A stretch of DNA of 64,000 nt from Phycisphaerae bacterium (GTDB taxonomy: Bacteria; Planctomycetota; Phycisphaerae; Phycisphaerales; SM1A02), in NCBI GenBank assembly GCA_016795035.1, contig JAEUIT010000039.1:1-64000 (forward strand), written 5' to 3'. The position numbers and the translations under genes were made by a program. Below, piece after piece: positions 1-44,635 of the stretch (its first letter is position 1; the number at the start of each line of letters is the position of its first letter). The notes under the pieces were generated by a model that saw nothing but the letters and a program-made list of their open reading frames with translations, did not search any database and was not told the origin of the DNA.

Positions 1-162
1 ATTCGGGGGAGGATGCAACTCAGAGTCCTCCCCCACGTCGCGTGGGGGAGGTGGCATCGCGCAGCGATGACGGAGGGGGACGTCGCGCGGCGCACCAGCC
101 CCCACCACCATCGCTTCGCGATGGTCCCCCTCCCCCGAATCGAGGATTCGGGGGAGGATGCA
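1..162. repeat. GC-rich double-hairpin repeats, two copies face to face
   Basis: The first copy has a perfect hairpin with arms 27-37 (CCTCCCCCACG) and 41-51, then a second small hairpin CATCGC-gca-GCGATG at 55-69, then CGGAGGGGG at 71-79. A second copy lies in the opposite orientation at about 95-157, with arms 129-141 (CCTCCCCCGAATC) and 145-157, next to CCATCGC-ttc-GCGATGG-like arms. A 17-bp direct repeat starts at 1 and again at 146. The same architecture returns at 46599-46650. I see no gene in 1-248. The block lies downstream of the minus-strand protease gene that ends at 249. Confidence 0.75.
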
Positions 163-248
163 GTGCGCCCTCCGCGTTGCAGGCGCGCGACGCCGGAGGG
201 GAGCACCGCCCTCCCTCTCCATTCTCCCCTCTCTATTCTCTCTCCCCC

Positions 249-3650: not shown

Positions 3651-3736
3651 TCTGTATTGCAACGCGGAGAAGGCGGAAACCCGAAATCCGTGGCGTAGCC
3701 TATCGACCGCCGTGATGGTCGCCGTACGCTGAGGCC

Positions 3737-6114: not shown

Positions 6115-6120
6115 AATCGA

Positions 6121-26917: not shown

Positions 26918-29900
26918 TCACGCCACGTCGACGACCACGGCGTGCGGCGCGCGATCGTCCGTGAGCGTCACCGTCAGGCTGGGCTGGTCCACGCCGTCGA
27001 CGGAGACCCGAACGACGTTCGCGCCGGGGCCGGTTCGTCGCACGTCGATGGTGTACGTCGTCTCGCGAAAGCGATAGCGCGCCCGAAATCCGCTCCACCC
27101 GGCGGGCATGCGCGGGGCGACGCGCAGTCGGTCGACCTCGACGCGCACGCCGAGGAGCGACTCGCTGAGGAGGCGGTACATCACGCCCGCCGATCCCGTG
27201 TACCACGTCCAGCCGCCTCGCCCTGTGTGCGGCGCCACGGTGTAGATGTCGGCCGCAAGCACGTACGGCTCGACTCGATAGGTTGCAATCGCGTCCGGCG
27301 ACATTCCTAGGGTGACGGGGTTCACGAGCGCGAGAAGCTCCCACGCGAGGTCCGCGTCGCCGAGCGCCGCGCAGGCCATCAGCGTCCATAGCGCCGCATG
27401 GTTGTACTGCCCGCCGTTCTCGCGAACGCCCGGAACGTATCCCTTGATATATCCAGGGTCGGAGCGGCCGCGGTCAAATGGCGGGTCGAGCAGGCGAATC
27501 CGCCGACCGGCACGATCCCCGGCGCCGACGAGCCGCTCGATCGCGTGGTCCATCGCGCTGCGTGCCCGTTCCGGCGCCGACGCGCCGGAGAGGACGGCCC
27601 AGCTCTGCGCCACCGCATCGATCTGGCACTCGTCGTTGCCGCGAGACCCGAGCGGCTCGCCGTCGTCGAAGTAGGCCCGCCGATACCAATCGCCGTCCCA
27701 TCCGTGCATCTCCACGTTGCGGCGCAGCGTCTCCGCATGCTCGTGACACCGCCGGGCGGTGTCCTCGTCGCCGCGCTTCCGCGCGAGCGCTTCGAAGTCG
27801 GCAAGCACGCGCACGAGGAAGAACGCAAGCCATACGCTCTCGCCCTTGCCGCGGGCGCCCACCAGGTTCATGCCGTCATTCCAGTCGCCCGAGCCCATGA
27901 GCGGCAGCCCATGCTCGCCCGTGCGCAGACCATGGTCGATCGCGGCGACGCAATGCTCGTAGAGCGAGCCCGATCGCTCGGAGCGCTGCGGAAGATCAAA
28001 ATAGGAATCCTCCTCCGGCCGCAGCGGCCGTCCCTTGAGATAGGGGGCCTCGACGTCAAGCACGCCGGTGTCCCCCGTCGTGGCGACGTACCGGCACACC
28101 GCGGCGGGCAACCAAAGATAGTCGTCGGAGATGCGCGTCCGCACGCCCCGACCGATCGGCGGGTGCCACCAATGCTGCACGTCGCCCTCCTCGAACTGAT
28201 GCGCGGCGCACCGCACGAGGTGCTCGCGACAGAGAAGAGGTTCCGCGTGCAGGAGCGCCATGACATCCTGAAGCTGATCGCGGAATCCGAAGGCGCCTCC
28301 AGACTGGTAGAACCCCGTCCGCCCCCAGAGACGGCACGAGATCGTCTGGTAGAGCAGCCATCCGTTGGCCATCACGTCGACGGCCGGGTCGGGCGTCTCG
28401 AACTCGAGGGCACCCAGCGTGCGCGTCCACTGCGCGGCGACCGCCTCGAACGCACGCTGCGCGCCGGACACGCTACGAAACCGTCGCATGAGACGCCGCG
28501 CCTCGTCCTCACTCGCGGCGACCCCGAGGACGAACACGACCTCACGCTCCTCGCCGTCCTCAAGCTCGATCGGCGCCTGCATCGCCGCACAAGGATCGAA
28601 GCCCGCACCGAGCCGTCCGGAGAGCCGCACCCGTCGCAGCGCCGCGGGCTGCCCGCTCTCTCCGTTGCGGCCGAGGAACTCGGTCCGGTCCCCCGTGACG
28701 GTGCGCACGGGTTCGCTGCAGTCGACAAAGACAAGCCGATCTGCGAACTCCGCGCTGTACGGATTGCGCGCGAAGATCGCGCCGGTCGTCGGATCGAGCT
28801 CCGTCGCCACGTGCATCAGCGTCTTCGCGCGAAGGTCCCCGAGCACAAGCTCCCAGTAGCCGGTGACGGAAAGCCGCCGCGGTCGTCCGGAGGCGTTGAC
28901 GACTCGAAGCCGAGCAACCTTGACCGGCGCGTCGGCTGCAACGTAGAGCCGGAGCTCGGTCGATATCCCCTCGCACGTGTGCTCGAACGCGCTATAGCCG
29001 AATCCGTGGCGGATCGTGAACGAGGCGGCGCCCGCGTTTGCGGCGTGCCCACGGCCGGACGGGAGCGGCGTGGGCGTCCAGACGCGTGCGGTCTCCTCGT
29101 CGCGAAGGTAGATCGCCTCGCCGCTGACGTCCGAAACCGGATCGTTCCTCCAAGGCGTGAGCCGAAACTCGTGGCTGTTGCCCCACCATGTATAGGAACC
29201 GCCGCTCTCCGAGACGAGCGTCCCGAACTGGGCGTTCGCGATCACGTTCGACCACGGCGCCGGCGTGCGCGCTCCGTGTTGAAGCCGGACCACGTACTCG
29301 CGACCGTCGGATCGGAACCCACCGAGGCCGTTGAAGAAGCGAAGCGCTTCCGTCGGCGGTTCCTCGGCTCGCGGAGCCTCGCGCCGCGAGCGTGACGGCT
29401 GCAACGCGGGGATGAACGACTCCGTCCTGTCGCGACGAGCCGCTTGCTCCTCGAGCGTTCCGGCTTCGTCGAAGAGAACGACCCGCGCGACCGTCTGCAG
29501 CAGGGCGCGATCCTCGTCCGACATCTGCTCCCCGCGCCGCACGAAGATGCCGCCCGGCTTGTCGAGGAGCGCCGCCTCCGTGCTCGCGCCGACGACATCC
29601 ACGATCATCTGTTGCAGTACGTGGTGGTACACCGAGCTGTCCTCGTTCCATATGACGAGGTCGACCGGCAGCCCGCGCATGCGCCAGTACGCATGCGCCT
29701 TCACCGCCTGCCGCATCAGTTCGAGCCGCTCCGCGTCGCGAATTCGCACGAGCACGATCGGGATGTCGCCGGAGATGCCGTAGCTCCAGAGGCCCGACTG
29801 GCCGCGGCGATTGCGCGTGAGCACGCTCGGCTTGGCACGCCGAAGCCCGGAGGCGAACACGATCGACCCAGCGAGTTGCTCGTAACACTCCGCTTCCTGC

Positions 29901-32900
29901 TCCGTCACGTTAAGTTGGCGCAAGAGGATCTGGCTATGCGTCGTCGCGAGATCGAAGATGCGGTCGGCGAGGCGCGGGTCGCAGTATCGCTCGGTCATGG
30001 CTTCGACCGCCGCGCGCGTCTCGGCGATGCCCGTGACGAAGTCGACGATCACCGATTCGTTCGGTGCAAGTCGCGCCGTATGCCGGATCGCGACGATCGG
30101 ATCGAGCACCGCGCCGCTCGAGTCGGAGAGCGGCCCGATCGCGTCAAGCGCGGACGGCCTCGACGCGTCGCGGCCTCGGCCGAGGAAGAGGCCGCGGTCC
30201 GTCTCGAATGATGGCGCGCCCACCGTGGTCCCGCGCACGGACAGGAGATGCATCAGCCAGGGCGGCCGCTCTTCGGCGGATCGCGGACGGCGCGTGCACA
30301 GGATTGCCTGCCGTCGGCGGACGAGCTCGGTCTGCACGAAGAGGTTACTGAAGGCGCGATGCGCGGCGTCTTGGCCAGCCGGCGCGAGCACGATCTCCGC
30401 ATAGCTCGTGAACTCGATCGTGCGCGTCGTGTCGGACCGATTGGTGATCGTCACGCGCCGAAGTTCGACGTCGTCCTCCGGTGACACGCTGATCTCGGCG
30501 TGCGTCTCGATCCGACTCTCGACGCGACGGAACTCCGCTCTCGCTTGGGTGAAGATCGCCTCGTAGCGGCCACTCGGCCTCGCGCCCGGTTGCCACGACG
30601 TCGACCACGTCTCGCCAGACTCGATATCGCGGAGATAGCAGAAGGTGCCCCAGCAGTCGCGCGTGGCATCCTCCTGCCAGCGCGTGATCTCGATGTCGCG
30701 CCAGCGGCTGTAGCCGCCGCCGGAGTTGGTGACGACGACGTGATAGCGCCCGTTCGAGAGGAGCCCCACCTCGGGCGGTCCGCCGACGGGATCGTCGAAG
30801 ATCCGCATCGACCCTTCCGCCGCGTCGGCGATGGGGCGCGTCGCGCTGGCCTCGGCCGCGTGCGGAAAAATAGGTGAGAGCGCGCGCGGCACGCGTTCCT
30901 GGAGGAGATGGACGCTCGCGCGGAGCGCCGGATCCGCGTTGAATCGACGTTGCATCGGCCGATCGAGGAGCGCGTAGTCAAACGCGAGCAGGCTCATGCC
31001 CTGGTGGTGCGCCATGAACTGCCGCACCACGACGTGCGTCGCACGGCGCGGAAGTCGCGACGGCGTGAAGTCGATCGCCTCATACAGACCGCAGGCGCCT
31101 TGCGCGCCAAGCTCCGAGAGCCGAGCGAAGTTTCGGCAGGCGGCGTCGGGATCGACCATCAGTGCGAGCGCCGTCGCGTACGGCGCGACGACGATGTCGT
31201 CGGCAAGTCCACGTTTCAGCCCGAGGCCGGGCACGCCGAACGCGCGGTACTGGTAGTTGAGATGGGCGTCCGTTGCGAAATACCCCGACTCCGACATTCC
31301 CCACGGCACGTCTCGGCGTCGCGCATACGTAATCTGGCGCTGCACCACCGCGCGATAGGTGTGGTCGAGCAGCGTCCCCGGGAACGACGGCATCACGAGG
31401 AGCGGCATGAGGTACTCGAACATCGAGCCGCTCCAGCTGAGGAGCGCGGGCTCGCTGCCGGTGGTCGTCAGGAGTCGGCCAAGCGCGAACCAGCTCTCCT
31501 GGCCGACTTGGCCGCGCGCGATCGCGACGAAGGACGCAAACCGCGCCTCCGACGCGAGCAGGTCGTAGAACGCGGCATCGAGCCGATGCTCGTTCACGCC
31601 ATATCCAATGGCGAAGAGCTCGCGCTCCGGGTCGAAGAGGAACGTGAAGTCCATCTCCCCCGCCTCCTCGCACCGCGCGGCGGCTTGCGTGAGCTGCGAG
31701 ATCCGCGCGGTGGCCGCGCGTGCAGACGCCAGCACGCGCTCGCGCACGCATGTCGCCCAGGCGCACTCGACCGCGCCTCCGGCCCCGGGCGCCGGCGCGA
31801 CCGCGAGCGTTTCCGATTCGGCGAGCATCGCAAGTTCGCGCAGCGTGACCGCGCGCTCCGCCCCGCGGTCGAGCCGTGCGAGAATCGCGCGATAGGCCTC
31901 GGTGCGCGGCTCTTCCGGCGCGTCGGCCTCGTCGGCCGCAACGGGGAGCCCGGCGATCGACGTCCACGACGTCAACGACTGCAGGTCGTCGCGGTGGTCC
32001 GCACAGGCGCGCGCGAGCGCGGTCGCCCACCAGATTGCGTCGGCCCCGACGTCGGGAATCCGCTCGATCTCGAACGCGAGCGCCACGCTTCGCTGCGCCA
32101 TGCGACCGAGACGCTCGAGGGCACCACGCGTGGTCGTCGACTCGTGCATGAGATCGGCGCTCAGTCGCGCGAGGCGTGCGATCAGGTCCGCCGTCGTGCG
32201 ATCGGGGCGAATCTCGTCGAGCAGCACCTCGACCGTCGCGCGGAGTCCGCCGAAGAGCCGCGCCGGAACGATGGGCGCGTCGATGAGGCCGAGCAGTCCC
32301 GACTTGAGAATGTGCAGATGCCCCGCGAAGTTCCCGCTGTCGACGGTCGAAACATAGAACGGCGGCATCGGACGCAGGGAGCGCGTGTCGTACCAGTTGT
32401 AGAGGTGGCCGCGGTGCCGATCGAGACCCGCGACCGTGTCGAGCGTGTTGGATATGCGTTGCAGCATCCGGCCGCGACTGACATATCCAAAGTCCGCGGC
32501 GGCGAGATCGGAGAGAAGCGCGAGCCCGATGTTCGTCGGGCTGGTCCGCGAGGCGACCGGGACCGGACGGTCGGTCTGCACGTTGTCCGGCGGAAGCCAG
32601 TGCTCCTCCGCGTTGACGTACCGCTCGAAGTAGCTCCACGTGCGCCGGCTCAGCCGTTCGAGCATGGCTCGCTGCGAGGCCGAGAACACGAACCGCTCGG
32701 GCATCCGAGGCCGACTGATCCACCACGCCGCCACCGGCGCGAGGAACCACGGCGCGAGGAACGGCATGGCCCACGGCAGCGACTCGGGCCGCACGAAGAG
32801 GCACGCGGCTGCAACGCCGAGCGCGAGCGCCGGCGCGCACCACATCGCGCGAAGGTATCCCGAAAGCTGGTCCCGCGCCCGACGCTCGATGTCGCCTGCG

Positions 32901-35668
32901 GTCGTCCACTCGAGGAGGTGCCGACGCGTCACGAACATCCGCACCAGGGTTTTCGTCAGCGCGGAGAGATTGATCCATGCGTCATGCGGGAGGACGACGA
33001 GCGCCAAGAGCCCCTGCAGCAGCCGATGGCCGAGCGTCGCGCCGGCCGCCCTCGCTCGCGCCCGCACGGGCAGCTCGGCCGCGGGAGTCACGACGTCGCC
33101 GACGAAGCCAAGCGCCGAGGCGATCGCAAGCGTGGCGAGCACGACGATCGTGGCGGCGGGCGCAAGCGACGGCACGCCGATCCAGGCTGCAACGAGGAGT
33201 GCGACCATCGCGATCGGAACCACGCTGCGCCGAAGGTTGTCGAGGATCTTCCACCGCGAGAGCGTCGAGATCGGATTGCGCACCCAGCGCGACGCGCGCG
33301 ACGGGACATACGGAAGAAGCCACCAAAGGATCTGCCAATCGCCGCGCACCCAGCGCTCGCGCCGGCTGGCGTCGTCGAGGTAGCGGGAAGGAAAGTCCTC
33401 GTACAGCTCGACGTCGCTCAGAAGCCCGGAGCGCGCATACGTGCTCTCGAGCAGATCGTGGCTCAGGATCGTGTCGTCGGGGAACGCCCCGCACGTCGCG
33501 ACGAAGGCGTCGATGCCATAGATGCCCTTTCCTATGAAAGTGCCTTCATCGAAGAGATCCTGATAGACGTCCGACACCATGCGCGTGTACGGGTCGATGC
33601 CGGCATCTCCGCACGCGAGGCGCACGAAGTGCGACCGTTGCGAGCTCGGCAAGCTCACGCCGACGCGCGGCTGCACGATTCCGTAGCCGGCAACCACGCG
33701 AGCGCGCGAGCCGTCGGCGTCGGCGCGCACGACCGGGCGATTAAGCGGATGGGCCATCGTCTCGACCATGCGTCGCGCCGCATCGCGCGGGAGCTGCGTG
33801 TCGGTGTCGAGCGTGATGACATAGCGGGCGCGTTGCAGCGCGGCCGTCTCTCCGACGATCGTGGCAAAGAGGTCGTGCGCCGCCGCGCCGCGTAGCCACG
33901 CGTTCAGGTCGTGGATCTTTCCCCGCTTGCGCTCGTGCCCCATCCAATGCCCCTCGCGGGCATTCCATCGGCGCGGGCGGTGAAGCAGCGCGAAGATGTC
34001 GGATCGCGCGGTTCGGTATTTCGCGTTGAGCGCCGCGACGCCGCGCGCCGCGAGCTGCACGAGCTCCGCGTCGACCTCCGACAGCTCGTGCGGGCCGTCG
34101 CGCAGATCGGTGAGGAGCGCGAAGTGAAGCATCGGGTCGCGATTCGCGAGGTACAGCACCTCGAGCGACTCGAGCAAGCGCTCGACTCCCGCGCGATCGA
34201 CGAGCATCGTCGGCACCGCCACGAGAGTTCGGCAGGCTTCGGGTATCCCGCGCCGAAAGTCCATGCGCGGCAACGGACGCGGCGGCACCGACAGCGTGGC
34301 AATCCAGTTGACGATCGCGAAGCTCGCCTGCGAGAGGCATACGACCGCGGGAATCGCGAGAAGCCAGAGCCAGAGCGCTCGAACGTCCTCGACCCCGCCG
34401 ACGCGCCCGAGGAGCACGATGGCGATGGCGACGAGCGCCGCGGCGCTCGACAGATAGATCGCCAGCGAGCGTCGGGCCAAGGCCCGCACGACGGTCGTGC
34501 GAAGCGGCGTACGGACGTGCAGAAGCCGCTCGAGTTCCGTGCGCCCCGCGTCGAGGAGGTGATAGCTGATGTGCGCGTCGCGTCGTTCAGGATCGGCATC
34601 GCCACGGCGCGCGAGCGCGGCGGTCGCGACCTCCACCTCGGTTCGGCCGCTCTGCTTGGCGAGATCCTCGATCGCGTGGCGACAGCGATCGCGCGTCGTG
34701 AAGTCCATCGTCGCGTAGACGCCGGTCGGATCCTGCCGCAGCACGCGCTCGACCGCGCTCTGCGCCTCGACGAAGTCGCGCCAGTCGCTCGAGACGAGCC
34801 GTCGAAGGCTGCCGATGCTGTTGCCCATCGAGACCTGATCGGCGGCGCGCGCCTGTCCGTCGATGCGGACGAGCTGCTCGATCGTCGCGCCCTCCTCGGC
34901 AAGTCTGTGTTGCAGCCAGCTGTGCACGAATGTGAAGTGCGGACTCTGTCCTTGGATATGTCGGGTGAGCTCGGCGAGAAACGCGCCCGAGAGCGTCACG
35001 CGGGCGCGGGCCATGTCGGCCATCGTCACGATGAGATCCGACGGATTCTGCTCAACCGTGCGAAGCATGCGCGCCGCCCACCCGTGCGCGAGATCCTGCT
35101 CGCGCTGCGTGGCGGCGATGCGCGCAGACACGCGGCGCAGGTTCTCGATGAGCGCCAGGCGCAACGCGATCGGCAGCGCCCAGAGCTCGCCGATCGTCAG
35201 GCTCTTCGACGCCTGATACGCCGCGACGAATCCGTTCAGGCTCGGAAGATCGACCCTGCCGTCGACGTGCGCGATGAGTTCGAGCGCGATGGCGTAGACA
35301 CGCGGATGCCCGGCGAGCGCGCCCCTGGCGAGGCGCGGAAGCTCCCTGCTGTACGACGTCGGGAGGTGCCGCCGCGCGGTGCGAATCTGCTCCTCGATGA
35401 GGTAGAAGTTGTCGAGGAGCCACTCCGCCGCGGGGGCGATCGGCTCGTCGCGTTCGACCGCGGCGATGACCAGCTCGTACGCGTCGACGAGCACGCGCTC
35501 GTTCTCGGCGAGCCTCGGTATCAGCCGTTCCGGGCCGCGGCCCTTCGCCAACTCATGCTGCGCGGCGAGCGCGCGCGCATGGCTCTCGAGCTGATCGACG
35601 CTGTAGAGCTCGCCCTGGAGCGGGAGCTCGCGGCCCCGCTCGTGCCGATGCCGACGCCGAGCGAACAC
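26918..35668 (-). CDS. NdvB-like cyclic beta-1,2-glucan synthase
   Basis: About 2916 aa, the largest gene here. Known NdvB proteins polymerise, cyclise and trim beta-1,2-glucan, a periplasmic osmoregulator. The N-terminal part has membrane helices and a GT84 transferase (VITLDTDTQLPRDA near residue 620). A second membrane cluster is near 840-1000, and a glycoamylase-like domain follows near 1400-1600 (GLFDEGxx-type GYGVNEHRLD, MAHHQGMSLLAFDY). Two carbohydrate-binding beta domains lead to a C-terminal GH94 phosphorylase-like domain with GSGDWNDGMNLVG near 2600. The frame stays open to a TTG at 35734, but GTG 35668 leads into the usual LPLQGELYSVDQLE start. Confidence 0.88.
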   Translation of the reverse strand: MFARRRHRHERGRELPLQGELYSVDQLESHARALAAQHELAKGRGPERLIPRLAENERVLVDAYELVIAAVERDEPIAPAAEWLLDNFYLIEEQIRTARRHLPTSYSRELPRLARGALAGHPRVYAIALELIAHVDGRVDLPSLNGFVAAYQASKSLTIGELWALPIALRLALIENLRRVSARIAATQREQDLAHGWAARMLRTVEQNPSDLIVTMADMARARVTLSGAFLAELTRHIQGQSPHFTFVHSWLQHRLAEEGATIEQLVRIDGQARAADQVSMGNSIGSLRRLVSSDWRDFVEAQSAVERVLRQDPTGVYATMDFTTRDRCRHAIEDLAKQSGRTEVEVATAALARRGDADPERRDAHISYHLLDAGRTELERLLHVRTPLRTTVVRALARRSLAIYLSSAAALVAIAIVLLGRVGGVEDVRALWLWLLAIPAVVCLSQASFAIVNWIATLSVPPRPLPRMDFRRGIPEACRTLVAVPTMLVDRAGVERLLESLEVLYLANRDPMLHFALLTDLRDGPHELSEVDAELVQLAARGVAALNAKYRTARSDIFALLHRPRRWNAREGHWMGHERKRGKIHDLNAWLRGAAAHDLFATIVGETAALQRARYVITLDTDTQLPRDAARRMVETMAHPLNRPVVRADADGSRARVVAGYGIVQPRVGVSLPSSQRSHFVRLACGDAGIDPYTRMVSDVYQDLFDEGTFIGKGIYGIDAFVATCGAFPDDTILSHDLLESTYARSGLLSDVELYEDFPSRYLDDASRRERWVRGDWQILWWLLPYVPSRASRWVRNPISTLSRWKILDNLRRSVVPIAMVALLVAAWIGVPSLAPAATIVVLATLAIASALGFVGDVVTPAAELPVRARARAAGATLGHRLLQGLLALVVLPHDAWINLSALTKTLVRMFVTRRHLLEWTTAGDIERRARDQLSGYLRAMWCAPALALGVAAACLFVRPESLPWAMPFLAPWFLAPVAAWWISRPRMPERFVFSASQRAMLERLSRRTWSYFERYVNAEEHWLPPDNVQTDRPVPVASRTSPTNIGLALLSDLAAADFGYVSRGRMLQRISNTLDTVAGLDRHRGHLYNWYDTRSLRPMPPFYVSTVDSGNFAGHLHILKSGLLGLIDAPIVPARLFGGLRATVEVLLDEIRPDRTTADLIARLARLSADLMHESTTTRGALERLGRMAQRSVALAFEIERIPDVGADAIWWATALARACADHRDDLQSLTSWTSIAGLPVAADEADAPEEPRTEAYRAILARLDRGAERAVTLRELAMLAESETLAVAPAPGAGGAVECAWATCVRERVLASARAATARISQLTQAAARCEEAGEMDFTFLFDPERELFAIGYGVNEHRLDAAFYDLLASEARFASFVAIARGQVGQESWFALGRLLTTTGSEPALLSWSGSMFEYLMPLLVMPSFPGTLLDHTYRAVVQRQITYARRRDVPWGMSESGYFATDAHLNYQYRAFGVPGLGLKRGLADDIVVAPYATALALMVDPDAACRNFARLSELGAQGACGLYEAIDFTPSRLPRRATHVVVRQFMAHHQGMSLLAFDYALLDRPMQRRFNADPALRASVHLLQERVPRALSPIFPHAAEASATRPIADAAEGSMRIFDDPVGGPPEVGLLSNGRYHVVVTNSGGGYSRWRDIEITRWQEDATRDCWGTFCYLRDIESGETWSTSWQPGARPSGRYEAIFTQARAEFRRVESRIETHAEISVSPEDDVELRRVTITNRSDTTRTIEFTSYAEIVLAPAGQDAAHRAFSNLFVQTELVRRRQAILCTRRPRSAEERPPWLMHLLSVRGTTVGAPSFETDRGLFLGRGRDASRPSALDAIGPLSDSSGAVLDPIVAIRHTARLAPNESVIVDFVTGIAETRAAVEAMTERYCDPRLADRIFDLATTHSQILLRQLNVTEQEAECYEQLAGSIVFASGLRRAKPSVLTRNRRGQSGLWSYGISGDIPIVLVRIRDAERLELMRQAVKAHAYWRMRGLPVDLVIWNEDSSVYHHVLQQMIVDVVGASTEAALLDKPGGIFVRRGEQMSDEDRALLQTVARVVLFDEAGTLEEQAARRDRTESFIPALQPSRSRREAPRAEEPPTEALRFFNGLGGFRSDGREYVVRLQHGARTPAPWSNVIANAQFGTLVSESGGSYTWWGNSHEFRLTPWRNDPVSDVSGEAIYLRDEETARVWTPTPLPSGRGHAANAGAASFTIRHGFGYSAFEHTCEGISTELRLYVAADAPVKVARLRVVNASGRPRRLSVTGYWELVLGDLRAKTLMHVATELDPTTGAIFARNPYSAEFADRLVFVDCSEPVRTVTGDRTEFLGRNGESGQPAALRRVRLSGRLGAGFDPCAAMQAPIELEDGEEREVVFVLGVAASEDEARRLMRRFRSVSGAQRAFEAVAAQWTRTLGALEFETPDPAVDVMANGWLLYQTISCRLWGRTGFYQSGGAFGFRDQLQDVMALLHAEPLLCREHLVRCAAHQFEEGDVQHWWHPPIGRGVRTRISDDYLWLPAAVCRYVATTGDTGVLDVEAPYLKGRPLRPEEDSYFDLPQRSERSGSLYEHCVAAIDHGLRTGEHGLPLMGSGDWNDGMNLVGARGKGESVWLAFFLVRVLADFEALARKRGDEDTARRCHEHAETLRRNVEMHGWDGDWYRRAYFDDGEPLGSRGNDECQIDAVAQSWAVLSGASAPERARSAMDHAIERLVGAGDRAGRRIRLLDPPFDRGRSDPGYIKGYVPGVRENGGQYNHAALWTLMACAALGDADLAWELLALVNPVTLGMSPDAIATYRVEPYVLAADIYTVAPHTGRGGWTWYTGSAGVMYRLLSESLLGVRVEVDRLRVAPRMPAGWSGFRARYRFRETTYTIDVRRTGPGANVVRVSVDGVDQPSLTVTLTDDRAPHAVVVDVA

Positions 35669-35883
35669 GCTCCACCACGAACTAGAGCTCGATCGCGAAT
35701 GATGATCTGCGATGGAGCACGTTCCTCGCGGCAAGGAACGTCCGAGCGAAGTGCGTCGAAGCGGCGATGCCGCATCACTTGTACGCGCGTCGGCCTTGGG
35801 TCACGCGCGAAAAACTGGAGTTCGTCGTGAATGGGCCGCTTCGGCGCACATGTCGCGCCGAACCCGACGCACTGCATGTCCTG

Positions 35884-37281
35884 TTAGCCGGTCCAGCCGC
35901 CGATGAGGATGCCGAGGTCGGCGGCGTCGGTCGTTCCGTCGGCGTTGAGATCCGCGAGCGCCGTGGACCACGAGCCGATGAGGAGACCGAGATCGGTCGC
36001 GTCGACGCGCGCGTCGTGATTCAAGTCGCCGCTCGGCAGCGGAAGCCCGAGCGCCGCGGCGGCGTCGATGCGACCGGCCCCGAGCGCGCCCGGGTACTTC
36101 GGATTCGCGAGCGCGATGTTCGCGGCCGTCGCGGCCAGCGTGGCGACCGTGGCCTCGCCGTTCGTGCCTGCGTGGCTCATGACGAGCGCGGCCACGCCGC
36201 TCAGCACGGCGGCGGAGGTGCTCGTTCCGCTCGCGCCGGCGTATCCGCCGCCGGGGAATGTGCTGATGACATCGATGCCCGGCGCGCAGAGCGTGACGAA
36301 CTCGCCGCAGTTCGACCAGACGGCCTTGACGTCGGAGGCGTCGGTCGCAGCGACGGCGCACACGCCGCTCATCTCGGACGGAAACGTCCCCTGCCCCACG
36401 TTGCCGCCGTTGCCGGCTGAAACGACGACAAGGATGCCTTCGGCGAGCAGCGAGTCGATGACCGGCTCGAGCAGCCCGATGTCCTCCACGTTGCCGAAGC
36501 TCAAGTTGACCACGTCCGCGCCGGCGTCGCGGGCGGCGAGCAGCGCCGACGCGACGGCGAAGGCGGAGCCGTGTCCGTCGCTGTCGATCGCGCGGATCGG
36601 CAAGAGGGTCGCGTGCGGTGCGATCGTCGCGACGATTCCGCTCACGAAGGTGCCGTGCCCAGACATCTCGTCGGCGACGCCATCGCCGTCGTCGTCGAGT
36701 CCGTTGCCGAGGTCGCCCAGGCCGGCGCCGTCTCCGACGAAATCGAGGCCCGGCAACGTGGAGATGCCGGCGAAGTGCGGATGCGACAGATCGAGCCCGG
36801 TGTCGATGCATGCAACGACGACACCGTCGCCGAGCGCCACGTCGTGCGCTTCCGGAAGGCGAATGCGCTCCCAGAGGTACTGGGCGTCGAACGCGGTCTT
36901 GTCGGAGGCGAAGAAGAAGCTCTGCGTCTGGCCTTCGACGGTCTCGCCCGACTCGTTGAACTCGGCCTCCTCGACGCCCGTCTGCGCCATGAGTGCCGCG
37001 ACCAAGTCCGCCTCGCAGATCGGATCCGGCGCGGAGAGGAGATAGAGCCCTTCGCTCGGAATCGAGAGCGCGAGCGTCACGCCGGGAAACTGCCGCGACA
37101 CGGCTGCGAGCACGGCGTCGATCGACGCGTTCGAGTGGAGCTCGACCACGACCTGGTCGGGGAGCGCGCCCTGCGGAAGGCATGGGGTGCCGCCACCGCC
37201 GCCGAACGCGTTGCACGACGCGACGAGTCCGAGAGATCCCGCGACGACACGCCACAGACCGATGCGTGAGTGATGGCTCAT
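35884..37281 (-). CDS. Subtilisin-like protease with dockerin-like tail
   Basis: A 465-aa S8 protease, exported: the N-terminus VVAGSLGLVASCNAFGGGGG has a possible lipobox Cys. The catalytic triad is visible: Asp in ACIDTGLDLSHPHF near residue 160, His in MSGHGTFVSGIVA near 209, Ser in SGTSTSAAVLSG near 354. The last 50 residues hold two dockerin-like repeats (GDLNHDARVDATDLGLLIG, ADLNADGTTDAADLGILIG). GGAAGGAAG precedes the ATG. It is the last gene of an operon behind the CHAT protease (34-bp gap), so the CHAT gene, 214-aa gene and sigma factor probably form one regulatory unit with it. Its substrate is unknown. Confidence 0.92.
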   Translation of the reverse strand: MSHHSRIGLWRVVAGSLGLVASCNAFGGGGGTPCLPQGALPDQVVVELHSNASIDAVLAAVSRQFPGVTLALSIPSEGLYLLSAPDPICEADLVAALMAQTGVEEAEFNESGETVEGQTQSFFFASDKTAFDAQYLWERIRLPEAHDVALGDGVVVACIDTGLDLSHPHFAGISTLPGLDFVGDGAGLGDLGNGLDDDGDGVADEMSGHGTFVSGIVATIAPHATLLPIRAIDSDGHGSAFAVASALLAARDAGADVVNLSFGNVEDIGLLEPVIDSLLAEGILVVVSAGNGGNVGQGTFPSEMSGVCAVAATDASDVKAVWSNCGEFVTLCAPGIDVISTFPGGGYAGASGTSTSAAVLSGVAALVMSHAGTNGEATVATLAATAANIALANPKYPGALGAGRIDAAAALGLPLPSGDLNHDARVDATDLGLLIGSWSTALADLNADGTTDAADLGILIGGWTG

Positions 37282-37315
37282 ACTCGTGCTTCCTTCCCAG
37301 TGAACTTCGGACAAC

Positions 37316-40213
37316 TCAGCGTGCAACGACGGAGGCGACCGTGCCGAAGGCGCCCCACTGGCTCGCATGCGGGCGACGCTCGCGTGTCGCACGCATGGCG
37401 GTGCGGAGCGCCGCGGCGACGTCGCGCCCGCTCCAACGAGCTCCGTCGGCCCGCGACGACGCTCGTGCGTCCAACTCCGCGTGCATCGCGCTCATGAGAT
37501 CCGCGGTCGCCTCATCGTGCGTCGGCCACGCGCTCATGACAAGCGCTTTCGCGCCGGCGACGAAGAAACCCTGCTCGAGCCCAACGAGTTCGTCGCCACC
37601 GCCGACCGCGACGCGTCCGGTATCGCAGCCGCTCACGACGACGATCGTTCCGGGAATGCGCCACGCATGCAGGTCCGTCACCGTCAGCCATCCGTCGGCG
37701 AGACGAATGCCTGATCGCAGCGGACTGTCGTGCAGGAATCGACCGTGCGTAGCCATGTGGAGAATCGCGGCATTGGCCGCTTCTCGACGAACCGTATCCA
37801 TCGACGCGCGCTCCCTGCAAAGGATGCAGGCGCCACGGTCCATCGCCGCGATGGCGTCGATTTCCCCGGCAATCGCCGGCGCATTCGCGTCGGCCACGCC
37901 GACGAGCACGCGTCGGCCGCTGGAGTTCGCGCTGCCGGCATGGCCCAAGGCGTGCACGACCGCGAGGCTCGGCGCGGTGGCCACGTCGGCCGCGAGGCCG
38001 ATCGGCTCCCTCCGCGTTGCAGCCGTCTGCGGGGCGAGGAGGTGCATCGGCAGCGCGTGCAGCGGGCCTGCCGGCACGAACTGCACCGCCCCCGCCCCAT
38101 CGAGCAGGTCGGCGATCGGCGCGAGGAGCGTGTCCGCAAGCGCCGCGAGCGACGACTCGACGTCGCGCTCGATGCGTGCCGCGCGTGTTCCCGTGGCCAT
38201 GAGTCCACGTTGCAAGTGGAACCGCACCTGCTCGGTCGATTCGGTCACGTCGTCGACGTCGCCGAGATCCGCGCCGCGCACTTCGCCCCCTCGCGACGCC
38301 ACGGCGAGAAGCCTCGCGCCTGCAACGTGGAACACGACGATCGGGACGGGCTGCGACACCAGCAAGTCCACGACCTCCGGCCCGACCGGCGGCGCGAGCG
38401 GCGAACCTGCACGCCAACGGGCGTCGGCACGAACCGAGAGCAAGCGCTGCCGGTCCTCGATCGCGACCATGGCCGACCGCCAGGCGTCGCTTGTGGCGAT
38501 CGCGGGCTGGCGATCGAGCTCGCTGAGAAGGACGTTGGCCTCGTGGCGAAGCGCGATTGCCTCGCGCGAGAGATCGGCGGCGGCTCCCTCGGAGAGGTCG
38601 AGAAGCGCTTCGGCGGGCACCGACCCGAGGATTGCCTCGAAGAGCCCGCGACTCCGGACGCGCTCGCTCACGACGAGCGACTCCCGCAGCGCGGCGGGGC
38701 TGCCGTCGCGCACGAGCTCGCGCGTCAGGTCGGCCGCGGCGCCCACGTTCGCCGCGCCGTAGGCGACCCGCGCGCCGCCCGACCGGAACGTGCCTCGCAC
38801 GCGCTCCACGCGATCGAGCGACGCCCGCAGGAGCGAGCGTGCGTCGTCGGACTTCCCGCGGGCAAGCTCGATCTTGGCTGCAACGTGGAGCGCGTCGGCC
38901 TCGAGCGGGCGGACAAGGTGCGTCTCGGCGATCGCGAGGACCGGCGTCGCCGCATCGGACGCGCCGGCCACGTCGCCGAGCGCGATCAGCGCGTCGGCGA
39001 GGCGCAGCCGCGCGACGGCGGCTTCCACCGGCCTTGCCGCGAGCAACGAGACCGCACGCTCGAGATCTTGCCGCGCCGCAACCAAGTCGCCGCGGGCGAT
39101 CGAGAGCTCGCCCCGGATCGCGCACAGCGTGCCTTCGGCGCTCGTGTCCCCCGCGGCGAGCGCCGAGTCGGCGAGGAGCGCGTGGGCATCGTCGAAGCGC
39201 TGCAATCGCCCAAGCGCCCGCGCGAGGCCGAAGCGGGCACGGAGCGCCTCGAGCGTGAGCCCGGCACGCTCGAGCGCTTCGAGCGCCTCGCGATACTCGA
39301 CGAGCGATTCGCGCAGGAGCCCCGACTGCGCCAGCGCGTCGGCCTCCTCCGCCTGGAGCCGCGCGGCGTCGCCTTCGGCGCGAATGGAGAGGTGGCGCTG
39401 CCGAACTTCCTCGAAGAGTTCGATGGCCTCGGCGAGCCGACCTTGCCGCGCGAGAAGGTCGGCGAGATTGCCGTCGACGATCGACTTGGCGACGTGCGCG
39501 TCGGTGGCATTGAGCCCCTGTCGCGCCTCGCGGAACGCCGACTCCGCCTCACGGAATCGCTGGAGGTCGAGGAGCGCCTCTGCGAGATTGCTCATGAGCT
39601 GCGCGCGGCCCACGGGATCGTCGCCCCATGCCTCGAGCGCCGCGCGGATGTGCTCGATGGCACGCTCGGGCTGCCGTCGCATGCGCTCGATGACGCCGAG
39701 GTTCGCGCGGGCGCGGGCGACGAGCGGCCGCGCGCCCCGCGCCTCGAAGATCGCGAGGCTCCGTTCGCCGACGACGGCCGCGTCGTCGAGCTTGCCCTGC
39801 CGTGCGAGCGCGTGCATGCGCCCCATGCCGACGCGACCGGGCAACACGTCGAAGTCGGTGCCCGGATGCGCCGCGACCTCCGCGTCGGCCGCGTCGAAGC
39901 TCGAGGCGGCGCCAGCCAATTCCGTCGCGTACATCTGGGCGACGCCATGCGCGAGAAGCGCCGCGACCGTGCCCTTCGCGGCGTTCAGTTCGCGGGCGGC
40001 CGCAGCCAATGTCGCGGCGTCGTTCGCGGCGCGGCGCGGATCGTTCAGGGCCCGCCGATGCAATTCCTCGGCGGCGCGGACGAGCGCGTCGTCCTGCATC
40101 GCGCGATCTTCTCCGCGCGCGCGGGCGCGCTCGGCCAGCGTGCGCGCGTCACAGCCCGCGGCCAGAGCCTCGCTCAACGTTGCACACGCGTCGTCGGGGC
40201 TTTCGGAACTCAT
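37316..40213 (-). CDS. TPR-repeat CHAT-domain protein (caspase-like protease)
   Basis: 965 aa. Residues about 40-560 are tetratricopeptide repeats, likely a sensing or scaffold part. The C-terminal third (about 640-965) is a CHAT domain, a relative of caspases and separase. The catalytic dyad is present: His in HMATHGRF near residue 820, Cys in VVVSGCDTG near 861. The supporting signatures LHALPMHLLAP and GLEQGFFVAGAKALVMSAW are complete. There is no signal peptide, so it should act in the cytoplasm. It lies 17 bp after the 214-aa gene. Some CHAT-TPR proteins act in defence or cell-death systems, but which proteins this one cuts is not visible. Confidence 0.93.
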   Translation of the reverse strand: MSSESPDDACATLSEALAAGCDARTLAERARARGEDRAMQDDALVRAAEELHRRALNDPRRAANDAATLAAAARELNAAKGTVAALLAHGVAQMYATELAGAASSFDAADAEVAAHPGTDFDVLPGRVGMGRMHALARQGKLDDAAVVGERSLAIFEARGARPLVARARANLGVIERMRRQPERAIEHIRAALEAWGDDPVGRAQLMSNLAEALLDLQRFREAESAFREARQGLNATDAHVAKSIVDGNLADLLARQGRLAEAIELFEEVRQRHLSIRAEGDAARLQAEEADALAQSGLLRESLVEYREALEALERAGLTLEALRARFGLARALGRLQRFDDAHALLADSALAAGDTSAEGTLCAIRGELSIARGDLVAARQDLERAVSLLAARPVEAAVARLRLADALIALGDVAGASDAATPVLAIAETHLVRPLEADALHVAAKIELARGKSDDARSLLRASLDRVERVRGTFRSGGARVAYGAANVGAAADLTRELVRDGSPAALRESLVVSERVRSRGLFEAILGSVPAEALLDLSEGAAADLSREAIALRHEANVLLSELDRQPAIATSDAWRSAMVAIEDRQRLLSVRADARWRAGSPLAPPVGPEVVDLLVSQPVPIVVFHVAGARLLAVASRGGEVRGADLGDVDDVTESTEQVRFHLQRGLMATGTRAARIERDVESSLAALADTLLAPIADLLDGAGAVQFVPAGPLHALPMHLLAPQTAATRREPIGLAADVATAPSLAVVHALGHAGSANSSGRRVLVGVADANAPAIAGEIDAIAAMDRGACILCRERASMDTVRREAANAAILHMATHGRFLHDSPLRSGIRLADGWLTVTDLHAWRIPGTIVVVSGCDTGRVAVGGGDELVGLEQGFFVAGAKALVMSAWPTHDEATADLMSAMHAELDARASSRADGARWSGRDVAAALRTAMRATRERRPHASQWGAFGTVASVVAR

Positions 40214-40230
40214 GCACGACTCTCATCGAC

Positions 40231-40875
40231 TCAACGTTGCTTGAGGACGACGTCTCGAACCACGAGTGGACGATCGTCGCCCGGGCGCTCGATGACGAAC
40301 GCGATGCGCGCCGCGTTCGTCGTGAACGCGAAGCCGCCGTCGTCGGCGATGGCGATCGTCGTGAGCGGCGCGCCGGTGTCGAGGTCGACCACGTGCAACG
40401 CGAAGGCGTCGGACTCGGGCTCGTGCGTCAGCTGGCCGCGGACGCGGAGGTCGTGCTCGCCCGTCGGTTCGGCTTGGAGGTCGAGCCACGCTTCGCGCGG
40501 CTCGTCGTCGTCGCCCGCGGAAGCGCCGTGAAACGTGCGGACGGGCGCGGCGGTGCTGCGCAGCCCCGCGAGCGCGAGGGCCGGATCCGGCTGCGTCTCA
40601 GAGAGGAGCAGCGCTCGCGCCGAGCGAAGGACGTTCTCGAGCCACTCGGCCAGTCGGGCCGAGATCGGCTGGCGCTCGGGCTGCGTGCGGGCCGCAAGCA
40701 GTCCGCTCGCCCATTCGTGGAGCGACGCAGGCGGCTCCTCGAGCGGCAGCTCCCGGAGGACGCCCACGATTCCGCGGATCCGCTCGCGCTCGCCCGGAGC
40801 GGCCTCGGCGGCGGCGCCAAGGATCGACTCGATGGCCGCATCGATTCGCCCGGCGATGTCTCGTTCATCTGGCAT
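40231..40875 (-). CDS. Uncharacterised 214-aa protein of the sigma-CHAT operon
   Basis: 214 aa, no signal peptide, no membrane segment. I do not recognise the family. The N-terminal ~100 residues look helical and acidic (ERDIAGRIDAAIESILGAAAEAAPGERERIRGIVG). The C-terminal ~100 look like a beta sandwich (EAWLDLQAEPTGEHDLRVRGQL, HVVDLDTGAPLTTIAIADDGGF). The ATG at 40875 was preferred over the frame to 41025, which would read Arg/Pro-rich spacer sequence. Its place between ECF sigma factor and CHAT protease suggests an anti-sigma, adaptor or protease-substrate role; all of these are guesses. Confidence 0.75.
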   Translation of the reverse strand: MPDERDIAGRIDAAIESILGAAAEAAPGERERIRGIVGVLRELPLEEPPASLHEWASGLLAARTQPERQPISARLAEWLENVLRSARALLLSETQPDPALALAGLRSTAAPVRTFHGASAGDDDEPREAWLDLQAEPTGEHDLRVRGQLTHEPESDAFALHVVDLDTGAPLTTIAIADDGGFAFTTNAARIAFVIERPGDDRPLVVRDVVLKQR

Positions 40876-41037
40876 CCGGCACACTCCGTTCGCGGATCGC
40901 AATCCCACCCGTCGGTCGGACGGCGGCCGGGCCAAACCCGGCCGGACCGTCGGTCGGCGGGGCCGAGACGACGCGGTCCGGTGGAAAGTGCGGGCTGGCC
41001 GCTCGCTGATACGGCGAATCTGCAAAGCCTGCAGCGG

Positions 41038-41718
41038 TCATGGGTCGGCCTTCGTTCGGTCGGCCCCCGCCGGGCGGAACGACGGCCCGAGAAGCTCAAG
41101 AAGCTGCTGGAGGCATCGCGCGCGCTTCGGTCCGATGCTGCCGACCGGCATCTCGAGTTGTCGGCTGATGGCTGCGTAGGGAACGTCGTCGTCCCGGACG
41201 AGCGCCATCAGGAGGTCGCGACAGCGCGGCTCGAGTTTCGCGAGCGCCTCGCTCACGAGCTGCGCCTCCTCCATGCGCGCGACGAACGCGTCGTCTTCCG
41301 CGTTGCAGGCGGACGTGTCAATCGTGTCGGCGCTCGCCGCGCCGGCGCTGCGGCGCCGGTGGCGCGTCGCAAGGCGGATCGCGATGCGCCGCGTCGTCGT
41401 GATGAGCCACCGCGGCAACGCCGGTTCGTGCCGCAAGAGCGGCAGTTGGCGAAGCAACCCCATCCAGACTTCCTGGAAGACGTCGTCGGTGATCTCGTCC
41501 GGCACGCCGAGTCGCCGGATCACGCTGTAGACGAGCCGCTCATACCGCGCGACGAGCGTGCGCCATGCGGCATCGCTTCCGTCGCAGCACGCGCGGATGA
41601 GATCGCCGTCGCTCGGTGACGCCGCGCTCGCGCTTCCCGCGCAGGGGATCGTCGATGGGCGCTTCGAGTGGTTCGCTCCGGAGGGCACGGAAGGCCGCGG
41701 AGGGTCGACCGAGGTCAT
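41038..41718 (-). CDS. ECF-type RNA polymerase sigma factor
   Basis: 226 aa. Region 2 is WRTLVARYERLVYSVIRRLGVPDEITDDVFQEVWMGLLRQLP-like, including DVFQEVW near residue 85 (key D-x-x-Q-E-x-W). Region 4 has LEPRCRDLLMALVRDDDVPYAAISRQLEMPVGSIGPKRARCLQQL, a classic helix-turn-helix for the -35 element (residues about 160-210). No membrane anti-sigma gene follows. The next gene is the 214-aa protein, then the CHAT protease and a subtilase. It probably drives this operon or related envelope genes. The N-terminal ~40 residues look disordered, so the true start may be further in. Confidence 0.9.
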   Translation of the reverse strand: MTSVDPPRPSVPSGANHSKRPSTIPCAGSASAASPSDGDLIRACCDGSDAAWRTLVARYERLVYSVIRRLGVPDEITDDVFQEVWMGLLRQLPLLRHEPALPRWLITTTRRIAIRLATRHRRRSAGAASADTIDTSACNAEDDAFVARMEEAQLVSEALAKLEPRCRDLLMALVRDDDVPYAAISRQLEMPVGSIGPKRARCLQQLLELLGPSFRPAGADRTKADP

Positions 41719-41886: not shown

Positions 41887-42591
41887 TCACGAGCCGCGCG
41901 GGGGAGCGAACTGCGGGGGCATCACGGGATTCGGGGCGCTCGGCGCCAGCGCGCCCCTATCGATGAGCCGCTTGCGGATCTCCGGAAGATGCTCCGCGAG
42001 GTACTGCGCCATCGGACGGTCCTCGTCCTTCCAGTCGTACTGTCGGGCTTCGTCGAGGGCCGCTTCCGGCGTCCATCCCTGATACAGCATGCGAAACGCG
42101 GCGACCACGCCGCCGGTCCGCTGGGTGCCGGCCGAGCAATGCACGAGCGTGATGACGCCCGTGCGATCCGCCTCGATGAGCGCGGCGACGGCGTCGGTGT
42201 ACACGCCCACGTCGCCGGTGCCGTCGCCGATCAGCGGGAAGTTGCTGATGGCAACGTTGAGTTCCTTCGCGACCTCGTACTCCTTCACGCGACCGGGATC
42301 GTCCTCGTCGAGCTGGTTCAGGTCGAGGATGTGCTGGATGCCGCGCGACGAGAGCACCGGTCCCACGACGTATTCGGACAACTGGCCGCTGCGGTAGATC
42401 GTCGCCGTCACAGGTCCAAGCCGCTTCGCGACGATGCGGTCGCGCAGCACGCCGAACCACAGCCCCACGCACGCGCCGATGACCGCCGCGACGATCGCCG
42501 CATTGCGCAGGAACCGCCCGAGGTGAAAGCCGCGCTCGCGGCCTGCGGCAGCAGCAACGGTGGAGGCGGGTGAGACGTCGACCGAGCTCAT
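41887..42591 (-). CDS. Membrane-anchored dual-specificity or Tyr phosphatase
   Basis: A 234-aa protein. One membrane helix lies near the N-terminus (NAAIVAAVIGACVGLWFG, residues about 30-48), then a catalytic domain whose signature HCSAGTQRTG (C-x5-R, near residue 150) is intact. The general acid is likely in DGTGDVGVY upstream. It resembles planctomycete protein-tyrosine and dual-specificity phosphatases; the substrate is unknown. The ATG overlaps the stop of the upstream gene as TGATG, so translation is coupled. A small perfect stem (CCCTGCA-cgaat-TGCAGGG, 41794-41812) lies downstream, possibly a terminator or operator. Confidence 0.86.
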   Translation of the reverse strand: MSSVDVSPASTVAAAAGRERGFHLGRFLRNAAIVAAVIGACVGLWFGVLRDRIVAKRLGPVTATIYRSGQLSEYVVGPVLSSRGIQHILDLNQLDEDDPGRVKEYEVAKELNVAISNFPLIGDGTGDVGVYTDAVAALIEADRTGVITLVHCSAGTQRTGGVVAAFRMLYQGWTPEAALDEARQYDWKDEDRPMAQYLAEHLPEIRKRLIDRGALAPSAPNPVMPPQFAPPRGS

Positions 42592-43862
42592 CAGCCGAGT
42601 GTACCGGTGGGCCGGTCGATCAATTCGTAGCGAAAGACGAGGATGGTCGGGATCGGCGGATAGCGAAGCGTGATGCGATAGCCGACGAAATCCTCGAGCG
42701 CGCACCCGAGTCGCTCGGCGGTGAAGAGCGCGAGTCGACGGGAGCCCGCAAGTTCGGAGGCCTCGAAGTCCTCGCGATCGTCGCCCGTGCGCTTCGTCTC
42801 GAGCTCGACGAGGGCCTCGCTCAAGGGCAGTTCGCCGCGGTCACGGCCGCAGGTCGGATAGGTCGGCGCGCCCGGCATCTGGCTATAGAGATGCACGGTC
42901 GGCGGCATCGCCTCGGTCAGCTCGCGATGCACGAAAAGGTCGTGCTGCGAGAACTCGGCGGGCGTGTTGAGCGACGCGAGCAATTCCCCGTATCGATCGT
43001 GCTCCGTGCGATAGCGGCACACGTCGGCGCGATTGATCCAACCGGTGACGCACGTGACGCTGCCGGTCTTGCCGACGGGGCCTTCGGGGATCTCGTAGCG
43101 CGTGAGGCGATCGCTGCCTTCGGCAACGCGGAGCACCGGCTCCGGCGTGGAGCAGAAGCGGCGGACCAACGGCGCGCGATCCGGCTGCGTGCTCGGATCG
43201 AGCGGCTCGTACGGAAGGCGCGACGCCGACGAGCCGTCGTCGAGATATCGCTGCACGGTGGCGACGGCCCAAGGGACGTCGGAGCGCAAGCGACGGAAGT
43301 CGACGAGACCGCTCACCGTCGCAAGGTCGAGCGTGTCCGGCTGCTCGCGCGACGGGGCGATGAAGTGCGCGGAGATGCGAGCGCGCGTCTGCACGCCCCA
43401 GATCGCGCTATTGCCTTGGAACGCCTTCTTCCGGAGCGCCTCCTCGGACTGCTGCTTGCGCTCGCCCTGCCGCTCGCCGATCATCATCACGAACGTGTCA
43501 CGGTCGCCGCAGTGCGTCTCGATCATGCGCTCGAACGCGTCGAACGCTTCGCGCATCTCCTCGACTCGCTGCGACGACGCGCCCGCCTTGGTGAACTGGC
43601 GCACGACGATGTTGATGCCCGGCCGGCCCGGAATCAGGACCGCCGAGGCCATCGGGTCCTCGTCGCACACGACGCGCGAGAGCTTCCACGCGAGACTCTT
43701 GTCGAGCCCGAACTCGCGAGACATCTCCTGCGGCCTCGTGGGATCGGCGTCCATCGACGTGATGAGCGAGGCGAGCGAAGAACGGAACGCCTGCAACGTC
43801 GAGCGCAGGTCGTTCTCAAACGAGGGTGCTGCGTGCCGCATGTCTTGGTGCACGGTGGTCAT
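42591..43862 (-). CDS. Uncharacterised protein with helix-turn-helix-like N-terminus
   Basis: 423 aa, soluble. I do not recognise the family. Residues about 48-68 (MSREFGLDKSLAWKLSRVV) look like a helix-turn-helix, so a DNA-binding role is possible. The rest is mixed alpha/beta with scattered Cys and His (HCGDRDTF, CVTGWINRADVC, YPTCGRDRG) that do not make an obvious metal site. It ends in TGATG, which also starts the phosphatase. Their coupling suggests a regulator or substrate-handling partner of the phosphatase. Confidence 0.7.
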   Translation of the reverse strand: MTTVHQDMRHAAPSFENDLRSTLQAFRSSLASLITSMDADPTRPQEMSREFGLDKSLAWKLSRVVCDEDPMASAVLIPGRPGINIVVRQFTKAGASSQRVEEMREAFDAFERMIETHCGDRDTFVMMIGERQGERKQQSEEALRKKAFQGNSAIWGVQTRARISAHFIAPSREQPDTLDLATVSGLVDFRRLRSDVPWAVATVQRYLDDGSSASRLPYEPLDPSTQPDRAPLVRRFCSTPEPVLRVAEGSDRLTRYEIPEGPVGKTGSVTCVTGWINRADVCRYRTEHDRYGELLASLNTPAEFSQHDLFVHRELTEAMPPTVHLYSQMPGAPTYPTCGRDRGELPLSEALVELETKRTGDDREDFEASELAGSRRLALFTAERLGCALEDFVGYRITLRYPPIPTILVFRYELIDRPTGTLG

Positions 43863-43942: not shown

Positions 43943-44635
43943 TTACTGGCTCGGTCGCACGCGTTGCACGGCCGATCCGCACTCCGAACATCGACCGTCC
44001 AGCGGCAACGCCGCTCCAATTGGATACGCGCACGATGGGCAAAGCCCCTGCCGGCGTCGCAGCACTCGCTCGACCGCGCGCGGCAACACCGCAAGAAGCG
44101 CGAGGAACGCGCCCCAAAATAAGGCGTCCACCCAAAGCCCGAGCGGACGAATCGTCACCGGAACCCGTACGACGCCGCGGCGGACGTCGAATACGACCAA
44201 ACCCGTGCGGATCAGGGTCGGCGAAGTGCCCGCGACCCACTCGCTGCCTTCGACACACGAAAGCGGCCACCCGGCCCGCACGCGAAGGGCGCGTCCTGTG
44301 CCTTCGGGCGACCGGTCGACGCGTCCGTCGGCGCCGTAGCGCCAGAAGACGTAACGCGTCGTCTCCTCGCCGATTCGGGTGTCCACGAAGCTTCGGCCAT
44401 CGGAGCGCCAGGAGAACTCGAGCCCTTCGACCGCCATGAGCCTCGCGGCGTCGTCGGGGAGGTTTGCGCTCAGCCAACGCAGGTCCGCTCGAAGATCGAT
44501 CCGCTTCGAAAACGGCACGGCGACGTCGGGCAAGAACACCCTGAACCACGCCAGGACGAGGGAGAGCATCGCTCCCGCCGCGAGGAAGCCCACCAACGGA
44601 AGTCCGCGTTTCAGCCAGCGCATCCGTGACGCCAC
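43943..44635 (-). CDS. Zinc-ribbon membrane protein, function unknown
   Basis: 230 aa. One N-terminal membrane helix (GLPLVGFLAAGAMLSLVLAWF), a ~130-residue probable extracytoplasmic domain, a second helix (LWVDALFWGAFLALLAVLP), then a C-terminal zinc ribbon C-P-S-C-A-Y...C-S-E-C-G (residues about 200-225). It shares the ribbon with 16314-17231 and 48722-49072, but the order is reversed compared with the first. Role unknown. Confidence 0.75.
   Translation of the reverse strand: MASRMRWLKRGLPLVGFLAAGAMLSLVLAWFRVFLPDVAVPFSKRIDLRADLRWLSANLPDDAARLMAVEGLEFSWRSDGRSFVDTRIGEETTRYVFWRYGADGRVDRSPEGTGRALRVRAGWPLSCVEGSEWVAGTSPTLIRTGLVVFDVRRGVVRVPVTIRPLGLWVDALFWGAFLALLAVLPRAVERVLRRRQGLCPSCAYPIGAALPLDGRCSECGSAVQRVRPSQ

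Follow-up and report, generated by a model that had tools for sequence, protein, structure and literature searches.

A conserved sigma factor, CHAT protease and subtilase operon in Phycisphaerae and other bacteria as a candidate protease-switched sigma-factor cassette

In this work, we analyzed a four-gene operon lying within 64,000 nucleotides of contig JAEUIT010000039.1 from a Phycisphaerae bacterium (the window, meaning the whole stretch analyzed). On balance, we lean towards the view that it encodes a cytoplasmic, protease-switched sigma-factor cassette, in which a CHAT protease would cut a 214-aa anti-sigma protein and thereby free an ECF sigma factor. The observations behind this reading are the gene content and its conserved order, the intact catalytic residues, the N-terminal anti-sigma homology of the 214-aa family and the joint retention of its linker and sandwich with CHAT. 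The ORF list and the sequence place four genes on the minus strand in the order sigma factor, 214-aa protein, TPR-CHAT protein and subtilase, with gaps of 162, 17 and 34 bp, and so confirm all the open reading frames and gaps of the operon described in a first-pass annotation of the same DNA. The features are as follows:

41038-41718, minus strand: ECF sigma factor, 226 aa (TIGR02937 4e-19, Sigma70_r2 7.7e-12)
40876-41037, minus strand: intergenic gap of 162 bp between the sigma and 214-aa genes, with no assigned gene (ORF list, sequence)
40231-40875, minus strand: 214-aa protein, probable soluble anti-sigma factor (family comparison, AlphaFold, fold match of a relative)
40558-40560, minus strand: codon of R106 in the linker, putative cleavage point (Arg conserved in 36 of 37 homologues)
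37316-40213, minus strand: TPR-CHAT caspase-like protease, 965 aa (Pfam; dyad H823/C863 invariant in 23 of 23)
35884-37281, minus strand: subtilase, 465 aa, apparently exported, with a dockerin-type tail (Pfam; triad D160/H209/S354 invariant in 21 of 21)

The sigma factor, whose gene comes first in every intact related locus, carries region 2 at aa 55-123 and region 4 at about aa 154-209, the latter with a weak Pfam match (r4_2). In the CHAT protein, TPRs at about aa 150-430 precede a CHAT domain at aa 688-956 (Pfam CHAT 2.8e-34, 119 bits against a cut-off of 24), and the dyad typical of CHAT (clan CD) peptidases, H823 and C863, is conserved in all 23 relatives. The subtilase combines a fervidolysin-like propeptide, a Peptidase_S8 domain (3.1e-32) and a dockerin-type tail, and its S8 triad of D160, H209 and S354 is present in 21 of 21 relatives; both sets of catalytic residues are intact, as first annotated. 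The N-terminus of the subtilase is hydrophobic and contains a lipobox-like LVASC, and relatives begin in a similar way; these features support the earlier proposal of an exported enzyme, and the subtilase looks exported on that basis. The annotated dockerin tail is also present (Dockerin_1 scored 25.6 bits; cut-off, 22.9), but it is not distinctive, given at least 54 dockerin matches in the same genome, and was rejected as a specific feature. That genome yielded two cohesin matches, both weak, and exported proteins of this lineage commonly end in a tail of this type. By hydropathy, the sigma factor, the 214-aa protein and the CHAT protein have no strong membrane segment and are therefore probably cytoplasmic; the earlier description of a sigma factor without a membrane anti-sigma was correct.

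The operon is bordered directly downstream by a gene for a 2938-aa cyclic beta-glucan synthase-like protein with GH94 and glucoamylase-like domains (26918-35734, minus strand). Upstream of the sigma gene lie a dual-specificity phosphatase-like gene (41887-42705, minus strand), which is not conserved with the module, and two genes whose products match nothing in Pfam (42591-43862, 423 aa, and 43943-44635, 230 aa, both minus strand). An extension of the operon to the GH94 gene or to the phosphatase gene was rejected because neither is conserved beside the module, and among the related loci none of the window's flanking genes (GH94 glycan enzyme, phosphatase, mutase) travels with it.

When the CHAT protein was searched against 60 related genomes, 22 further loci gave long matches. 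The order sigma factor, gene of about 200 aa and CHAT was kept in all 21 loci whose contig reaches upstream, and the subtilase came last in 20 of the 22 (exceptions, L037 and L042). A second full set lies on another contig of the same genome and belongs to a different orthologous lineage (L035, G000:C47:274000-292000). The two copies pair separately with the two copies of a sister species in all comparable proteins, which indicates that the sets were inherited as units.

Named genomes were also scanned for CHAT, and the neighbourhoods were read by profiles. The same order was found in Chloroflexota (L056, and L057, where no subtilase adjoins), Acidobacteria (L058, L060, L064 and L069), Planctomycetia (L072), the actinobacterium Modestobacter (L099) and the betaproteobacterium Rubrivivax (L109). 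With the order kept in 21 of 21 related loci and in several phyla, the adjacency of these genes is not peculiar to this genome, a possibility that the first-pass annotation had raised against its own reading. The CHAT genes scoring highest against this subfamily all adjoin the 200-aa gene where the contig permits, and lower-scoring ones, many of them cyanobacterial or from Desulfobacterota, lack it with few exceptions, which ties the association to one CHAT subfamily. In four Chloroflexota loci (L071, L088, L089 and L116), an ORF of about 230-270 aa without a convincing Pfam match lies upstream of the anti-sigma-like gene and resembles, by eye, a very divergent sigma factor; in the last three of these loci the anti-sigma genes carry two zinc motifs each.

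The 214-aa protein by itself had no match in Pfam, NCBIfam, PADLOC or PHROGs, and a family was built first. Its previous description as an unknown protein thus holds for the window protein taken alone, but the family resembles a soluble anti-sigma factor. In an alignment of 19 homologues, the N-terminal region shows 'LVAYASGEL', the linker is conserved as 'LVFDSR..LAGFRG', and the C-terminal part is rich in beta structure; the window protein consists of a helical N-terminus (aa 4-94), a flexible linker with R106 and a beta-sandwich (aa 113-210). Among these 19, zf-HC2 was matched in six and CarboxypepD_reg in six, mostly weakly. The zinc motif H-x3/4-C-x2-C, which is typical of anti-sigma factors, occurs in same-operon relatives (L057, L058, L067, L088, L089 and L116), and zf-HC2 exceeded the Pfam cut-off in the last three. 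When the family profile was searched against 294 planctomycete genomes, many matches were confined to the N-terminal 90 or so positions. From 20 such loci, picked by eye and with their neighbours not known beforehand, the gene was recovered in 19, and an ECF sigma gene stood immediately upstream in 16 of these; most of the proteins carry a membrane helix following the match, like classical anti-sigma factors. In the control, 12 loci matched mainly in the sandwich half, the count was 0 of 11. Furthermore, five of 17 weak matches in a PDB profile search were ECF anti-sigma factors (RslA, MucA, RskA and two RseA).

AlphaFold modeled the window protein as four helices followed by the sandwich (pLDDT 69.7 overall, about 90 in the sandwich and about 65 in the helices) and the acidobacterial relative of L058 with a pLDDT of 85.8. 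A fold search with the latter model retrieved ChrR bound to SigE (E 8.9e-4, probability 0.99), in a flexible two-domain alignment with a low global TM-score of 0.25; the window protein's own model retrieved only generic Ig-like sandwiches, none with E below 0.001, and these were set aside. ChrR, a soluble anti-sigma factor of the zinc type that binds SigE of R. sphaeroides, likewise joins a helical anti-sigma domain to a beta domain; its second domain, however, is a cupin sensor, whereas the window family has an Ig/transthyretin-like sandwich and the window protein has no zinc ligands. The ligands H-x3-C-x2-C are missing from the window protein, as from its close relatives, and occur in relatives from other phyla. 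Since the N-terminal motif of the window protein is also degenerate and that part of its model is weak, we attribute an anti-sigma role to it on the strength of its family. In roughly one homologue in four, the first anti-sigma helices are missing although a sigma gene adjoins (for example L034, L050, L054, L060, L064, L069, L072 and L109). As in class I (ZAS-type) anti-sigma factors, the family has a helical N-terminal domain encoded beside an ECF sigma gene, and on these comparisons its members are very probably soluble anti-sigma factors.

The remainder of the protein appears to belong with CHAT. The residue aligned with R106 is Arg in 36 of 37 homologues (the exception is L034), mostly at 17-33% identity to the window protein, and the segment aa 88-108 is the least ordered of the window AlphaFold model (pLDDT < 50). 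Two species of Meiothermus lack a sigma factor in their CHAT cluster and have a GAF-GGDEF-HD protein there instead; in their 200-aa homologues the anti-sigma half is gone, and the linker DSR, the Arg and the sandwich remain. The two halves therefore separate by partner, the N-terminus with the sigma factor and the linker and sandwich with CHAT, which is compatible with a cleavage or docking site. In these two loci (L063 and L068, about 1-7804), one or two sandwich-only homologues are followed by the GAF-GGDEF-HD protein and then by CHAT, with a subtilase in L063; the sigma output seems to have been replaced there by a protein of cyclic-dinucleotide type. Neither the 214-aa protein nor its homologues matched the catalytic domain of a peptidase; of the carboxypeptidase domains, only the regulatory-like sandwich turned up, in homologues.

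From these elements we propose the following sequence of events. At rest, the ECF sigma factor would be held by the N-terminal anti-sigma domain of the 214-aa protein, whose beta-sandwich would dock onto the TPR-CHAT protease. A signal sensed by the TPR part would activate CHAT, which would cleave the flexible linker between the anti-sigma domain and the sandwich, possibly after R106, although this Arg could be structural rather than a cleavage site. The sigma factor would then be freed, or left on a fragment to be cleared by housekeeping proteases, and would transcribe a regulon probably including its own operon, which would yield more exported subtilase. No promoter motif common to the upstream regions of 32 sigma genes stood clearly above shuffles, and autoregulation of the operon is therefore unsupported. 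The first-pass annotation had suggested a link between proteolysis and the sigma factor through the 214-aa protein, and it was right insofar as the three genes belong together and the family carries an anti-sigma domain and a CHAT-associated sandwich.

The same annotation recognized the parts but not the system, and the published literature provides a partial answer. In the type III-E CRISPR system CASP/Craspase, the TPR-CHAT protease Csx29 cuts Csx30, and CASP-sigma is freed (PMC10028731). The window operon shares with it a TPR-CHAT protease, an ECF sigma factor and, by prediction, a sigma-binding intermediary, and its CHAT profile retrieves structures of Csx29 (about 1e-11); it differs in having no CRISPR parts, an intermediary with no detected similarity to Csx30, and an exported subtilase as a near-constant fourth gene. 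The CHAT protein scored 14.6 bits with the curated Csx29 model NF041237 (cut-off 300), no Cas7-11 effector was found among the neighbouring genes examined, and the module recurs as four genes. A protease, a soluble anti-sigma factor and an ECF sigma factor also make up the three-part logic of CalpL/CalpT/CalpS (PMC11417357), where, unlike here, the protease is a SAVED-Lon enzyme activated by cyclic tetra-adenylate and the folds differ from those of the window proteins.

An unlikely but credible alternative is that the 214-aa protein, though an anti-sigma factor, is no substrate of CHAT: its sandwich would dock onto or inhibit the protease and hold it inactive, CHAT would cut some other cell protein after the complex falls apart, and the sigma factor would only set the dose of the operon. 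Synteny and domain evidence are equally compatible with this possibility, the beta-sandwich accompanies CHAT without a sigma factor in Meiothermus, and the CRISPR system provides an example of stable substrate binding to CHAT without activation (PMC10028731). However, it leaves the near-invariant Arg in a disordered linker unexplained, and in the nearest experimental precedents the anti-sigma factor is cleaved (PMC10028731, PMC11417357). We retain cleavage of the 214-aa protein as the preferred reading.

The closest published gene neighbourhood is that of the ECF54 sigma factors, for which CHAT, subtilase and carboxypeptidase neighbours are described and an anti-sigma factor is said to be absent (Casas-Pastor 2021 and an earlier survey, as cited in PMC8999054). 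The window operon has this gene content, although we interpret the 'carboxypeptidase' neighbour as an anti-sigma domain joined to a sandwich of regulatory type. The Modestobacter locus L099 has ECF54-like content and order, and its sigma factor matches the window-type profile at 7e-58. We take Modestobacter to belong to the same family as Geodermatophilus, an ECF54 example; matches were found in two of 40 sampled genomes of that family, one of them weak and at a contig end, which is not strong support for ECF54 there. For ECF54, a mechanism with no anti-sigma factor has been proposed from gene neighbourhood, in which the sigma factor is the direct target of the proteases and is held inactive by degradation (PMC8999054). 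The intact catalytic residues of CHAT and the subtilase would suit such degradation; nevertheless, we consider it improbable for this operon, as the N-terminus of the 214-aa family is homologous to anti-sigma domains and the subtilase, being apparently exported, would not encounter the sigma factor.

Bacterial gasdermins are activated by CHAT proteases. By general analogy with that activation, and with BovA as the best, weak (6.6e-4) PADLOC match of the CHAT protein, a cascade of death or lysis could be envisaged in which CHAT hits many cell proteins, the subtilase acts outside and the sigma factor merely expresses lethal genes, but this is highly improbable, as the conserved set has no gasdermin, toxin or pore gene, its flanking genes are not conserved, the similarity to defence families is weak and one genome retains two copies. 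A reading as a defence system was rejected, the PADLOC matches all being weak. Likewise, beyond the presence of an exported subtilase, nothing was found for the earlier suggestions of cell death or of coupling an internal signal to external proteolysis.

The synteny of sigma factor, CHAT and subtilase is already published in part, for ECF54 (PMC8999054). As far as the open literature was searched, the original ECF papers apart, the anti-sigma reading, the separation of domains by partner, the linker Arg and the range of phyla were not found. On the preferred reading, that of a protease-switched cassette, it is tempting to go further. As a tentative and rather less secure extension, the module might be a counterpart, widespread and independent of CRISPR, of the Craspase signalling arm, in which CHAT would cut the anti-sigma factor at the linker Arg and free the sigma factor, with the exported subtilase as the usual output; it might represent the stock from which CRISPR-linked modules came, and in Meiothermus the sigma output might have been swapped for another partner.

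To our knowledge, CHAT proteases are common in bacteria, but apart from those of CRISPR and gasdermin systems a substrate is known for very few of them. A single operon offers here a candidate substrate, a candidate site and a readout, which makes the function of a stand-alone TPR-CHAT protease directly testable. Altogether, these results challenge the view of ECF54-type sigma factors as lacking an anti-sigma factor and raise the possibility that the Csx29-Csx30-sigma arm has in this module a relative outside CRISPR.
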